NCBI RefSeq assembly: GCF_000023325.1
Contig: NC_012785.1
Coordinates: forward strand, 496,001-560,000
Direction of reading: 5' to 3'
Source: Kosmotoga olearia TBF 19.5.1
GTDB taxonomy: Bacteria > Thermotogota > Thermotogae > Petrotogales > Kosmotogaceae
DNA: 64,000 bases
Below the pieces are notes generated by a model. That model made no database searches, was not told the origin of the DNA, and saw only the letters and a program-made list of their open reading frames with translations. Positions 33,246 through 55,700 of the stretch are shown in pieces; positions within the stretch are counted from its first letter, which is position 1; each line of letters starts with the position of its first letter. The position numbers and the translations under genes are program-made.

Positions 33246-34251
33246 ATATCAACGCAATACGTAATCATATAGTAGGGACACAGCATGCTGTATAAAATTC
33301 GAGATCCGAGACCCGAGATCCGAGAAGGCTGCTTCGCAGCGGACACGAATCCCTTTGGGATTGGCACGAACTCCTGCGGAGTTGTTTCGAACCACTTCGT
33401 GGTTGTTATAAACTGCTTCGCAGTTGAAAAAATTGACACTTAAAACGATAACTGAGATCCGAGATTCGGTATTGTAGGACACAGCATGCTGTATAAAATT
33501 CGAGATCCGAGACCCGAGAATCCGAGAAATCAAGAACAGTAGATCCTGAATCAAGTTCAGGATGACAGCTTCTGTTTATAAAGGGAGATGCCGGACACAG
33601 CGTCTGCAAGCCTCAGTCTTCGAACGTCGCTCTACCAGCTGACAGCCTCTGCAAGCGACAAATGTTTTCCATCTGCAAAGCCATTCGTCTCAATCTCAAA
33701 GGGATTCGTACCCGCCTAATTTTCATAGCAATTCTTCCATAGCGTGCTTAATTTTACATTTACATACCCGAACTCATTTCTCGAATTCAGTCACTTGACT
33801 TCACTTTGTAACAGTTCTCTGTAATGTGCTATTTTTCTATTTCACACACGTTAGTTTGCTTTCCTTATTGTCGGATCTCTGTTAAATTATATTACGTTTG
33901 TTACCGCGAGATGTTAAACGCTCGTTTTATACATCGTTAAATCGTACTATTTGCATTTTTATTAGTCGCTTTCAGAGCTTAATATATTTGTTACAGACCT
34001 TCGTCGAATCAACCGACCGGTAAAATTTTAGGTAATTCCTATCATTGATTAACTACCCACGCTATTTAGAAATTCTCTAAAATCCTTAACAGAGATCCGA
34101 CAAATCCTTGGTCATTCGACTGTCAACTCGTTTACATTCACAGGGTTTACTGTACCCCTCTCCGGACAACGAATCTATATCTTATCCCTCCTTACAGATT
34201 AACTTTTTAGAAATAATTATTTCTCTCCCTATCAAAAATTCCCAAATTCCC
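33246..34251. repeat. Intergenic repeats and CRISPR leader region (no gene)
   Basis: 33270-33660 repeats the familiar modules: GGACACAGCATGCTGT, heptads of GATCCGAG type, an array (33327-33425), a GATCCTGAA/TTCAGGATGAC hairpin (about 33541-33566) and an AGCTGACAG block. From about 33720 the sequence becomes AT-rich and unique and carries no frame; this is the long leader upstream of the CRISPR array. Confidence 0.7.
33327..33425 (-). repeat. Mini-palindrome array, five units, period 21 bp
   Basis: Starts at 33327, 33348, 33369, 33390 and 33411. Read on the plus strand: gctgc-ttc-gcagc, aatccc-ttt-gggatt, aactcc-tgc-ggagtt, aaccac-ttc-gtggtt and aactgc-ttc-gcagtt. The linkers are gacacg, ggcacg, gtttcg and gttata. 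Minus-strand loops are therefore gaa, aaa, gca, gaa and gaa. Confidence 0.92.
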
Positions 34252-50276: not shown

Positions 50277-51532
50277 TCAAGCATAACTTGCTTCTCCACT
50301 TATTACATTAAGTTTTCCTGTTACAACGAAGGCAACAGACACCGCAAGGCTTAAAGATAACGCCGTCAACACAAGATAGTGTGCTGGTACATGATCAACC
50401 AGGAATCCATACGTTGCTGTTCCTAGTGGTAAGACGAGTCGCGACATCACTGCAAGCACTGAAAATACTCGTGAACGAACTTTTGTGGGAATCGCCTTCT
50501 GGAAAAAAACCCTTATCGGTGTACCCACAAAGGCGTTCAATAACCCTGTTGCTATTAAAGGAAGGGCAATGGCAACGAAATACAACCATGTAACCCCTCC
50601 AAAGAATTTCACTCCCCAGGGGAAGATCAAAATATTAAAGATATATACTGGTACCATTTGACCAAATAGTCCGAACTTAAAAAGCCTACCAGGATTTCGT
50701 TTCGCAAAAAATGAGGCAATCAACAGATTACCGATGAGATTCCCAATAATCCAGCATGAGTTTAGGATACCATATTGTTGACTGTTAAATCTGACAACTG
50801 TTCTCGCAAAATAAGGAAATACAACTATAAATGAGGGAATAAAAAGAAAATCGACTATCATGAGAAATATCATTACCGTAAACACATCTGACCTTACTTT
50901 CAAAAACGCAAACCCATCTTTGAGATCCTCAAAGAACTGCTCAACGGACATTTTCTTTCTTTCTGTTGTCTGCTTATACTGGATGAAGATCTCGCTGATC
51001 CCGGATACTACAAATGACGTAGCATTCAATATAAGAACAACGCCTATCCCAAGTGGATAAAGAACGCCTCCCATTGCTGGGCCTACGATATAACTTAAAT
51101 TGTTTATAGCACCGAGTATTGAATTTGCTCTCGTAAGTGCTCTTTAGGAACAATGTCCGGAAGCATTGCACTGGTAGCCGGACCAAAGAAGGTATCCATG
51201 ATTGCCATCGCAAATTGCGAAATGTAAATAACAGGAAGTGTGAGCATATTCCTGTACGCCAAAAAAGCGAGAAAAAATATCAGTGCTCCGCGGGCAAAAT
51301 CCATATAAATCATGATAGCCTTTCTGTTAAATCTATCGCCAACCACACCGGCTATTGGTGCCAGAATAATCACTGGAAGCATCGACATAATCAAGAATGT
51401 CCCCATCATCGTTCCGGAACCTGTGATATCAAGAATATAAAGCGAAAGAGCGAGTGACTGTATCCCACTTCCTATTAAAGACACAAGTCTACCCATTGCA
51501 TACAGCCAGAAATTTCTTAAACTACTTTTCAC
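50277..51532 (-). pseudogene. MFS transporter disrupted by a one-base deletion
   Basis: Two frames (51104-51532 and 50277-51074) together match the intact MFS protein at 53123-54379 over its whole length. The N-terminal part reads SLRNFWLYAMGRLVSLIGSG and breaks after PDIVPKEHL. Aligning the DNA, the intact gene has GAAAATCTTACAAGAGC where this copy has GAGCACTTACGAGAGC, one base short near 51137-51145, and the correct reading (LTRANSILG) resumes in the other frame. The downstream frame starts again at GGVLYPLGIGVVL. A functional full-length exporter is unlikely, unless ribosomes shift. Confidence 0.88.
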
Positions 51533-52058
51533 ACTATCACTCCTTTACAAAAAAACCGTTGTAGGTTGTACGTTGTAGGTTGTGCGTAAAAATCGAGAAC
51601 CGAGAACCGAGAGTCCGAGAAGGCTGCTTCGCAGCGGACACGAATCCTTTTGGGATTGATCCGAACTCTTTCAGAGTTGTCACGAACTCCTTCGGAGTTG
51701 ACCCGAACTGCTGCGCAGTTGATGTGCGCCTGCGGCGGAAAGCAGCTACGCTGCTGAAGTGCTTGACTACGTCTTGAAAGCTTCAGACACTGTCATTCGT
51801 TAGAAGTCAACGGATACCTGTCATTCTGGAGATGTTTAATCCAGAATCTTAATCCGCCACTGTCATTCTGGAAATCTTCTATCCAGAATCTGTGCCTCTT
51901 AACTACGAGATCCTGAATCAAGTTCAGGATGACCGACCTTATTTTCGAAACGTGTTTAATGATTTTCGTTCTTTTGGTTCTATCCGCCGAAGGCGCTTGT
52001 CAACCGCGAAGAAGTTTTCACCCACTCCGGAGGAGTGCTTGCCCCTGACGAAGTCAGG
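51533..52058. repeat. Intergenic repeat mosaic left of the group II intron
   Basis: Heptads ttgtagg, ttgtacg, ttgtagg, ttgtgcg (51559-51586), GAACCGAG heptads (about 51597-51620), a five-unit array (51622-51726), three hairpins of the CATTCTGG/CCAGAATC and CATCCTGAA/TTCAGGAT type (about 51813-51935), and palindromes at 52002, 52023 and 52044 forming the left half of the array split by the intron. Confidence 0.8.
51622..51737 (-). repeat. Mini-palindrome array, six units, period 21 bp
   Basis: Starts at 51622, 51643, 51664, 51685, 51706 and about 51727. Plus-strand units: gctgc-ttc-gcagc, aatcct-ttt-gggatt, aactct-ttc-agagtt, aactcc-ttc-ggagtt, aactgc-tgc-gcagtt, cgcc-tgc-ggcg. The linkers are gacacg, gatccg, gtcacg, gacccg, gatgtg. 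Minus-strand loops are gaa, aaa, gaa, gaa, gca, gca. Confidence 0.92.
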
Positions 52059-52825
52059 ATCGAGTAGGAGGGGGGAATCCCCCCGTCCTCTCACAGAACC
52101 GTGCGTACGGGCCAACGTACACGGCTCATGGATTGAGTATCGGATTCTCCGACGGTGGTTAAGTGCCATCATACTACCTCCGCATGGCCTTCAGAATAAG
52201 TCGCATATAACAGAATCGGTTTCTTCTTCCACACAGGCATCGGTTTTCTACCCCTTTCGAGGAATATGCCCAACCCTATAATGGATTACTTGCCTGCCCC
52301 AGCCATTTCAGACCACCGTCGGCATTTCAGCCTCCGTTACGGGCTCCTGTTATATTCGCTTCCCTTTGTGCCATTTCCTCAACCCTTCCCCCCTTCGCAA
52401 GTAACAGACCCTTTCGGTTCCTGTTACCCCCATCGCTCAAGGCGATAGTCCCTTCTCCTTTCAGAGAGGTTCAACACTACTACGGGTTCATCTGCCATCC
52501 TCCTCCGCTTCACCGGTCCTTGGCTCTCCCCTTGTTCCGGCTTACCCATCTTGGGACGAGTGAGGACTTCCCCGGGTAAGACATACAGCTTTCATCCGAA
52601 TCCTGCCATCCCAACCTGTAGAGTTGGAGCTCGGGCTTACCCATTCACGGCAAGGTTACCCACTCTACCGGCCAACACTGGTTCACTTTCGTTCAGTTCC
52701 GGATTTTGCCTTAGGCTTCCTTCAGATTCACCGTTACCAGTGACACCCTTGCCCTCAGCTAATGCTTATTTCGCTCCCCGCATTCGGGACTTTCACCCTA
52801 TAGTTGTATGTCATGCCGGGCACAC
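52059..52825 (-). mobile_element. ORF-less group II intron (767 nt)
   Basis: Read on the minus strand it begins GTGTGCCCGGCATG and has GGGTGAAAGTCCC shortly after, the conserved start of domain I. Domain V is at 52095-52127 (GAGCCGTG ... CACGGTTC with a CG bulge). Domain VI follows (GGGGGG-att-CCCCCC, then TCCTACTC with a bulged A), and the end is CGAT, an AY terminus. No reverse-transcriptase frame is present; apparent frames across it are accidental, so splicing or mobility would need a maturase in trans. It lies between linker and palindrome of a 21-bp array, and its removal restores the period exactly, confirming both ends. CTTACC (complement of 52575-52580) is a candidate EBS1 for the exon AGTAAG. 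Confidence 0.9.
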
Positions 52826-53122
52826 CTTACTCCCGGCATAGCCGGGCTTACCCACGCGCAGCGTGCTTACCAGCCGCATAGCGGACCTCTCGGTTCTCGG
52901 ACTCTCGGACTCTCGATTCTTACCAGGAGTTCGTGACAACCGCTTGCGGTTCGTGTCTCTTAACCAACTAACTGCGTCTGCAAACCTCTTGTTTTTCCCC
53001 ACTCCAAAGGAGTGCTTACCCCCAGCGTAGTTGGGCTTACCCACGCGAAGCGTGCTTACCAGCTGACAGCCTCGGCAAACCTTCGGGGCGTAGCTCCGCG
53101 CATCAATCAGCTTTATTGATTC
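52826..53122. repeat. Repeat mosaic right of the group II intron
   Basis: Resumes the split array with linker cttact (52826-52831), cccggc-ata-gccggg (52832-52846), cttacc and cacgc-gca-gcgtg (52853-52865). Then come CTCGG heptads (about 52884-52918), more units near 52925-52955 and 53003-53055 (cactcc-aaa-ggagtg, cccagc-gta-gttggg, cacgc-gaa-gcgtg), and an AGCTGACAG tail also found after the broken MFS gene. Confidence 0.82.
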
Positions 53123-54379
53123 TCAAGCGCAACTTGTCTCTTTTCGCAAAATGTTCAGCTTTCCAGCCATAAGGAAAGGAATAGTCGCTATAACAGTCAT
53201 AATCAGTGCTATTAAGACAAGGTAGTGGACCGGCATATGGTCAACCAAAAATCCGTACAATGCCGTTCCTAAAGGCACGATAAGCTGTGACATTACCGAA
53301 AGCACCGAGAAGACACGCGAACGTACATCCGTAGGGATTGTCTTCTGGAAAAAAACGCTCAAAGGTGTATTTACAAACGCATTTAACATTCCTGTTGACA
53401 TGAAAACAATGGCAAGCGTCCCGAGATACAGCCACGTAGCTCCTCCGAAAAATTTTGCACCCCACGGAAACATCAGAATATTGATGATAAAAAATGTGAT
53501 AATTTGACCAAAAAGTCCAATATCAAAAAGTTTTCCAGGTTTACTTTTTGAAAGGAACGAAGCAATCAATAGATTCCCTATAAGGCTACCCACAACTCCG
53601 CTTGACCTGAAAATACCAAACTGCTGACTACTGAAGCCCATCACTGTCCTCACAAAGTACGGAATTGCAATTACAAGTACAGGTGTCAGGAGAAAATTTG
53701 TTATCATAGCAAACAGCATTACCGTGGATATGTCCGACCTTTCTTTCAAAAAGGCAAAACCACCTTTGAGATCTTCAAAGAATTGTCCAGCAGACATTTT
53801 CTTTTTTTCCGTCGTTTGTCTGTAATGAATAAATATTTCGCTGATTCCGGATACTATAAACGACGCAGCATTTATTATGAACACTATTCCTATTCCCAAC
53901 GGATAGAGAACCCCACCCATTGCAGGACCTACGATATAGCTAATACTGTTTATTGCTCCTAGTATCGAATTAGCTCTTGTAAGATTTTCCTCGGGCACAA
54001 TATCTGGAAGCATTGCACTGGTAGCCGGATCAAAGAAAGTATCCATGATGGACATTATAAGTTGTGAAATATATATAATACTGAGAGACAATGTGCCTCT
54101 GTACGCCATAAAAGCCAAAAGGAATATCAAAACACCACGAGCGAAATCCATATAGACCATGATGGCCTTCCTGTTAAACCTGTCACCAATAACACCAGCG
54201 ATGGGTGCAAATACGACCCTTGGAATCATCGACATTACCAGGAATGTACCCATCATCGTTCCGGAACCCGTGAGATCAAGAACATAAAGTGAAAGTGCGA
54301 GCGACTGTATCCCGCTTCCTATTAACGATACAAGCCTACCCATTGCATACAACCAAAAATTTCTCAAAGGATTTTTCAC
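53123..54379 (-). CDS. MFS transporter (intact paralogue)
   Basis: A 418-residue membrane exporter with about 12 hydrophobic segments. The N-terminal FWLYAMGRLVSLIGSGIQSLALSLYVLDLTGSG and IAGVIGDRFNRKAIMVYMDF (the loop 2-3 motif GD-x2-NRK) are typical of the MFS_3/enterobactin-exporter-like and macrolide-efflux-like group. TRANSILGAINSISYIVGPAMGGVLY matches the family mid-region. A GGGGTGATGG site precedes the ATG. A second copy of this gene at 50277-51532 has a frameshift, so this is the working copy. Substrate unknown; drug or siderophore export are usual for the group. Confidence 0.88.
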   Translation of the reverse strand: MKNPLRNFWLYAMGRLVSLIGSGIQSLALSLYVLDLTGSGTMMGTFLVMSMIPRVVFAPIAGVIGDRFNRKAIMVYMDFARGVLIFLLAFMAYRGTLSLSIIYISQLIMSIMDTFFDPATSAMLPDIVPEENLTRANSILGAINSISYIVGPAMGGVLYPLGIGIVFIINAASFIVSGISEIFIHYRQTTEKKKMSAGQFFEDLKGGFAFLKERSDISTVMLFAMITNFLLTPVLVIAIPYFVRTVMGFSSQQFGIFRSSGVVGSLIGNLLIASFLSKSKPGKLFDIGLFGQIITFFIINILMFPWGAKFFGGATWLYLGTLAIVFMSTGMLNAFVNTPLSVFFQKTIPTDVRSRVFSVLSVMSQLIVPLGTALYGFLVDHMPVHYLVLIALIMTVIATIPFLMAGKLNILRKETSCA

Positions 54380-54630: not shown

Positions 54631-55700
54631 TAGGGTGTCTCAAAAATCAGTAACAGCCAATAATATCAGCCACCTTTCTGTGAGGACGGCTGTTCAAGAT
54701 ATTGAACATAACACAAAGATTGTATGCCAATATGGCCAAACCCAATACCGCATCATAATTCCTGTTTCTCACATACCAAATGTATTCCAGATTGAAATAT
54801 TCTTGTAGAATGTTAATCGTTCTCTCTATCTCCCAACGGTTTTTATACTTCTCCGCATATATTTGCCTCAATTGAATGCCCAGCCAACGAGCCTGACACT
54901 GTTTTTCCAGTGATACACCTTTCCTTTTGTTTGTGTCTATTACTGGTATCATGCTACTACAATCGAATATATAACGGTATATCTGTTGCGAATCATATGC
55001 GCTGTCTGCGAGGAAATACTTATATCCCTGGCCAGAATCTATTTGTGCCTTTGCCACCGTCGAATCGTGTACAGCTGCTGGCGTTGTCATCCAATCTTGA
55101 ATCAATAGGTTCTGTGCATCCAAACTCATATGTACCTTTCTTCCGTATTCCCAGCCTTTTGTCGTCTTTGTCCAACTGGATTGGGGGTCTTTGTATTTCC
55201 CTGTCCTTCTTCGTCTTTGTGCTGTATGGGTTTTACAAGTCTTGGTCACGAAAGGAATCCACCACCAACTCAATCCTTTCAAGTCCTTCTATATCCAAAA
55301 AGAGGTTTACAACATCTTTGTTTATCCTGTGAAGAGGCAATTCTCTTACTCTCCTGGATATAGTCTGGAATGGTGGTATGTTTTTCAAGTCCAAGAGTTC
55401 CATGTATTTGGGATTCTTTTCTAAAAAGTTCTTTGCCCCACGATATGAGACATCGCATAGCTTCAATAAAATGGAAAGTTTCAAGATGCTCTTGTCAGAA
55501 TAAGCCTTTCTTCTACCTCTGCCTTGTTTGTTAACGAAGTTAGAAGGCAAAAGCTTGTCTAACTGCTCAATAATCTTTACAATATCGCTTTTTGTGAGTT
55601 CTTGTGGTACCATTTATTTGGGCCTCCTTTCTTGTTTTGGGCTATTTCAATGGTACCACCATTGGAACTTGGGAGGCCCGCTTTTTTTCGTGACACCCTA
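54631..55700 (-). mobile_element. DDE insertion sequence with 9-bp target duplication
   Basis: 1070 bp. Terminal inverted repeats begin TAGGGTGTC on both sides (54631-54639 and, inverted, 55692-55700), with looser similarity further in. AATCTTAAT flanks it directly on left (54622-54630) and right (55701-55709), a clean target duplication that shows recent insertion. A 9-bp duplication is known for IS903-like members of the IS5 family and some IS4-like groups. It contains one transposase gene broken into two frames. Confidence 0.92.
54647..55613 (-). pseudogene. DDE transposase in two frames (frameshift)
   Basis: The N-terminal frame (55233-55613) holds KLSILLKLCDVSYRGAKNFL and ends shortly after IELVVDSF, which includes the first catalytic Asp. 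The C-terminal frame (54647-55282) carries YKYFLADSAYDSQQIY (second Asp) and RWEIERTINILQEYF (catalytic Glu). The sense of the protein passes from one frame to the other at GATTCCTTTCGTGACC, where one base must be skipped. That is either a one-base insertion or, less likely, a programmed +1 shift. The rest of the protein appears normal for IS4/IS5-type enzymes. Confidence 0.85.

Follow-up and report, generated by a model that had tools for sequence, protein, structure and literature searches.

An intron inside a mini-hairpin array

The window is the whole 64,000-nucleotide stretch analysed here, bases 496001-560000 of a Kosmotoga genome that consists of a single contig of 2,302,126 bp. On its minus strand, from 52059 to 52825, lies an intron assigned to group IIC, which is 767 nt long, carries no ORF and reads 5′ GUGUGCCCGG ... 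CUACUCGAU 3′; its ends were set by aligning the 11 copies found in the genome, the window copy included. The intron interrupts an array of mini-hairpins that we place in class A. Read along the minus strand, the mini-hairpin CCCGGCTATGCCGGG (52832..52846), the hairpin element of the IIC target, stands directly 5′ of the array linker AGTAAG (52826..52831), which carries IBS1 and ends the 5′ exon. The 3′ exon opens with a further mini-hairpin, CCTGACTTCGTCAGG (52044..52058), identified by array detection, whose first C is IBS3, and after the linker GGCAAG comes the last hairpin of the interrupted array, CACTCCTCCGGAGTG (52023..52037). The intron-bearing array is itself flanked by two similar membrane-transporter-like genes (50277-51532 and 53123-54379), the first of which is split into two ORFs, and at 54647-55613 two overlapping minus-strand ORFs resemble a transposase split across two frames.

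Judged from its sequence, the window intron is group IIC by RNA family, ends, protein class and form of target. Its Rfam match to RF02001 (group-II-D1D4-3) scores 104.2 bits against a gathering threshold of 32, and domains V and VI (52059..52129, minus strand) match RF00029 at 45 bits (gathering 40, E 1.3e-05), so that covariance models identify it as group IIC catalytic RNA. Copies with intact ends read 5′ GUGUG ... CUACUCGAU 3′, which fits the group IIC pattern of 5′ GUGYG and 3′ AY. The window copy is without an ORF, and the protein class is taken from an ORF-containing sibling (L001), whose product matches Pfam RVT_1 and GIIM only, has TIGR04416 as its best NCBIfam match and the GsI-IIC RT as its best PDB match, followed by the E.r. 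IIC maturase; it is a group II RT/maturase of class C type, without an endonuclease domain. As to the target, insertion behind a DNA stem-loop, as is typical of group IIC, is seen throughout: 11 of 11 introns stand directly behind a mini-hairpin plus 6-7 nt, and 10 of 11 lie at array junctions.

For known group IIC introns the insertion points lie behind terminators or attC sites (Robart 2007 and Quiroga 2008, as cited in PMC4424553). With these introns and with the E.r. IIC RNP (PMC10190682) the Kosmotoga introns share the domain I family, the 5′ GUGYG end, an RT/maturase without an endonuclease domain and a target composed of a hairpin, a short IBS1 and IBS3. They differ from them in that the Kosmotoga hairpins are host-specific dispersed array units with no T-run directly behind, and in that EBS1 and EBS3 vary among the copies of one genome, tracking linker class.

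EBS1 and EBS3 across copies and bodies

In the E.r. IIC structure the loop that ends D1d contains EBS1, and the coordination loop contains EBS3 (PMC10190682); because their positions match that structure we take nt 177-181 and nt 214 of the Kosmotoga intron as EBS1 and EBS3, respectively. In the window copy EBS1 is CGUGA (52645..52649, minus strand), in a terminal hairpin loop after CCUUGC, and this site covaries with IBS1 across copies and species; EBS3 is G (52612, minus strand), which pairs with C, the first base of the 3′ exon.

The siblings carry several such sets. CUUAC with G is found in L001, L002, L003 and L008, whose 5′ exons end in GGTAAG or GGTGAG and whose 3′ exons start with C, and it is in these four siblings that an earlier proposal from the sequence-only reading, that the intron has an EBS1 complementary to GGTAAG-like linkers, holds good, with CUUAC at the true EBS1 and sites ending GTAAG or GTGAG. 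CGUGA with U is found in L006, CGAGA with U in L004, L007, L009 and L010, and CGUGU with U in L011; the exons of the CGUGA, CGAGA and CGUGU copies mostly end in CG and continue with A. The correspondence of EBS3 G to a 3′ exon C, and of U to A, fits all ten copies that have an intact 3′ end. EBS1 leaves one position unpaired in L004, L007 and L011, wobble counted. Short EBS1-IBS1 and EBS3-IBS3 recognition of the group IIC kind is present, the window copy being mismatched at EBS1.

Watson-Crick pairs between EBS1 and IBS1 number 45 of 55 in the 11 genome copies, where shuffling gives 30.8 on average and 15 of 20000 shuffles do as well, 71 of 85 against 36.0 in Kosmotoga plus two relatives (0 of 20000), and 151 of 275 against 85.1 in 55 distinct pairs from a GTDB panel (0 of 20000); the shuffle counts are not strict probabilities, since the copies are related and their independence is overstated, and the text rule used to pick EBS1 in the panel does not work for every intron, an error that should do no more than lower the panel score. 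Among the relatives, EBS1 GAGAU is found with exon ATCTC and CAGAU with ATCTG. Some 5′ exons of the relative G009 are ATCAC or ATCCC rather than ATCTC, and the EBS3 rule is weaker in relatives, IBS3 in G009 often being C or another base though EBS3 is C. Most high-scoring RF02001 matches in the order's second family have no GTGYGCCCGGCATG 5′ end and were left out of the comparison.

The 11 copies fall into two diverged bodies, one with an ORF (L001, L002, L004, L009 and L010) and one without (six copies). All four combinations of EBS1 class and body occur (2, 2, 3 and 4 copies), and in a four-gamete test nt 178, 187 and 214 fail against dozens of body sites. Since the EBS types are found on both ORF-plus and ORF-less bodies, the targeting module was probably exchanged between bodies by recombination, as far as this small sample allows; several EBS positions change together, which makes recombination a simpler account than repeated independent change. 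The introns occupy differing positions within their arrays and therefore look like separate insertions rather than array duplicates. One ORF-containing copy, L009 (locus L019), breaks off at its 3′ end within domain VI, where unrelated sequence that resembles an inserted element takes over.

The window copy is mixed, with the EBS1 of class B and the EBS3 and exons of class A. Its combination of CGUGA and G is unlike every sibling set. Against GTAAG of its own exon, CGUGA forms two Watson-Crick pairs and one wobble (3 of 5), while EBS3 G fits the 3′ exon C. From L006, a class B copy, it differs at 8 of 767 positions, EBS3 among them. Such a copy may be an intron like L006 but with an altered EBS3, inserted off-target, which is the reading we favour, or a gene-conversion mosaic. 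A class A intron that originally matched its site and later had its EBS1 loop replaced by gene conversion would account for the class A EBS3 and exons on both sides beside a class B EBS1, and we regard this as a possible but rather doubtful history, given that the copy is nearly identical to L006 and the conversion tract would need to span almost everything except EBS3.

Hairpin arrays as insertion sites

Arrays of this kind are a dispersed feature of the genome. They account for roughly 0.7% of the DNA sampled, in which 54 arrays were detected, compared with 8 after shuffling, and examples in the window lie at 9184-9261, 33328-33427 and 51623-51739, among others. Approximately 83 hairpin-6nt-hairpin junctions were counted in 464 kb sampled (20% of the genome, window included), of which 54 have a linker ending in CG followed by A, 13 a linker ending in AG or TG followed by C, and 3 the linker GGTAAG. 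The description of GGTAAG as the "universal" or commonest linker does not survive this census: it is commonest only within the minority array class that hosts the window intron.

The hairpins recur in a set order, in which GCCGC-type hairpins come after CCGAGAA-type leader repeats and are followed either by the class B series (AATCCC, AACTCC, AACCAC, AACCGC) or by the class A series (CACGC, CCCGGC, CCCAGC, CCTGAC, CACTCC), the arrays finishing in a stretch of A residues. In this genome a pattern of two class B hairpins has 42 occurrences and a class A pattern 12. The class B pattern also occurs 2-4 times each in the relatives G004 and G006 (loci L209, L211 and L212), in which an RF02001 search found no intron; the arrays therefore occur without the intron as well. 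In two relatives most intron copies stand behind another hairpin repeat. One of these is G009, where the introns are mostly behind other dispersed hairpin repeats, one of them with 61 near-matches in that genome. Two loci of G009 (L057 and L061) hold head-to-tail tandem introns, with no base between the end of the first and the start of the second (TACTCGAT followed by GTGCGCC).

We are highly confident that a group IIC intron has reached a total of 11 copies by reverse-splicing into dispersed mini-hairpin arrays, with EBS1/EBS3 sets that match the array classes and were probably recombined, and with the motif CTTACC, considered in the next section, playing a structural part. On the model of the homologous E.r. 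IIC complex, whose structure is solved, the intron RNP would dock on the DNA hairpin, EBS1 (nt 177-181) would pair with the 4-5 bases at the end of the 6-nt linker behind it, and EBS3 (nt 214) with the first base of the next hairpin, so that the intron would insert between linker and hairpin. Each array class is matched by its own sets, CUUAC and G for GTAAG before C, and CGUGA or CGAGA and U for CACG or CTCG before A. These sets recur on RT-gene-bearing and RT-gene-less bodies, between which recombination probably exchanged them. The introns are presumably active, and the ORF-less copies would be mobilised in trans by the five that contain an ORF.

The idea that the introns are "tuned" to mini-hairpin arrays, put forward by the sequence-only reading, is thus supported in that every copy follows a hairpin with its 6-7 nt linker and the variation of EBS1 and EBS3 follows that of the linker and of the base that opens the next hairpin; the route it proposed, by way of CTTACC, is not. 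An account in which hairpin shape alone targets the arrays, any hairpin serving and the EBS1/EBS3 matches being by-products of related copies in related arrays, draws on the position of all 11 copies behind hairpins, on the insertion of the window copy despite weak EBS1 pairing and on the known use of a DNA stem-loop by IIC introns (PMC10190682; PMC4424553). We consider it improbable, however, because EBS1 varies in step with the exon across genera having different repeats and because 10 of the 11 copies share a single array orientation, that with linkers ending in G. The remaining copy, L010, lies in the opposite orientation in a CCGAGAA-type leader, and the reverse strand there, TCTCG, fits its EBS1 CGAGA.

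Targeting by EBS1 and EBS3 together with the hairpin invites comparison with the TeI3/TeI4 introns of Thermosynechococcus elongatus, which belong to group IIB1 and for which EBS divergence and ORF-less copies are known (Mohr 2010, PMC2882425). Both systems belong to thermophiles, comprise many copies with EBS divergence into target families, have ORF-less beside ORF-containing copies and use repeated non-essential DNA. Unlike the Kosmotoga introns, TeI3/TeI4 are IIB1, have one clade per EBS family and do not target hairpin arrays (PMC2882425), whereas the Kosmotoga EBS sets recur on both body types. A literature search with partial coverage of subscription papers found neither these arrays nor any Kosmotoga or Mesotoga introns described, and no account of IIC introns with several EBS1/EBS3 sets matched to hairpin-array linker classes and shared across bodies.

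That living in arrays benefits the intron, as a "safe harbour", may reasonably be supposed. The more general proposition, that IIC introns use the high-copy dispersed hairpin repeats of their host as a renewable habitat, with EBS1/EBS3 retuned for each repeat class, the EBS module recombined between ORF-plus and ORF-less introns and the population tracking linker diversity, is in our judgement evenly poised between true and false. The genome offers a natural experiment in retargeting a hairpin-recognising ribozyme, in that one intron, almost unchanged, occurs with four or more EBS1 versions beside the sites they have chosen, and the sequence rules of IIC target choice should therefore be testable beyond the usual terminator and attC sites.

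The CTTACC motif at the base of domain I

CTTACC has a single occurrence in the 767-nt intron, where base composition predicts about 0.06; it stands before CGGGGAAG on the minus strand at 52580-52575 (intron nt 246-251). The sequence-only reading correctly saw that it is complementary to the 5′ exon AGTAAG at 5 of 6 letters, and took it to lie where EBS1 is expected. The domain I fold that it proposed as a check puts EBS1 elsewhere, at nt 177-181, where CGUGA fits its own exon at only 3 of 5 positions. CTTACC belongs instead to the basal stem of domain I, on the 3′ side of an internal loop: nt 246-250, CUUAC, form the loop strand opposite CAUG, and the final C is the first base of CCGGG, one strand of the closing stem (52575..52580, minus strand). 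In the unconstrained MFE fold CCCGG (nt 6-10) pairs with CCGGG just 3′ of CTTAC, bases 3′ of CATG pair with bases 5′ of CTTAC, and EBS1 is exposed at a terminal loop.

The motif is common to introns with unrelated exons. CTTACCCGGGG is identical in 10 of 10 sibling introns that keep the region (L011 is without it), whose 5′ exons end in GGTAAG (three copies) and in GGTGAG, AGTAAG, GTCGCG, GTCACG, GTTACG, GTCTCG and TTCTCG (one copy each). The region is also kept in nearly every intron copy of the relatives G009 and G012, next to exons ATCTC, ATCAC, ATCCC and GATCTG, and in two further relatives beside TTTTAT-like exons. Scanning GTDB genomes with a pattern that constrained nothing but the two stem strands yielded a broad panel. 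All introns compared together contain 69 distinct group IIC stems, drawn from many bacteria, of which 60 have CTTAC and 6 CTTAT. For the inner stem flanking CTTAC, 400 of 414 cells are paired, where shuffling gives 260.5 on average and 285 at most, and compensatory changes of many types occur; mean pairing with the exon across the panel is 1.7 of 5 for the CTTAC motif against 3.1 of 5 for the true EBS1. Conserved against changing exons and flanked by a covarying stem, CTTAC is one strand of an internal loop in the basal part of domain I, and as RNA structure explains its conservation, the rarity of the 6-mer lends no support to a role in exon pairing.

On these comparisons CTTACC as an EBS1 that pairs with the array linker GGTAAG is refuted, and we give it next to no credence in spite of its complementarity, at five or six letters, to the window exon AGTAAG and the exons of L001, L003 and L008, because it stays CTTAC while exons shift through TCACG, TCTCG, ATCTC, ATCTG and TTTTT, and lies between covarying stems within the domain I base; the match in those three siblings arises because a second CUUAC stands at their true EBS1 position. 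A rare exon-complementary 6-mer can evidently become fixed for structural reasons. Another candidate EBS1, GUUGGG near nt 210-215, taken from the Rfam alignment, was rejected, as this stretch holds EBS3 and is invariant with respect to the 5′ exon.
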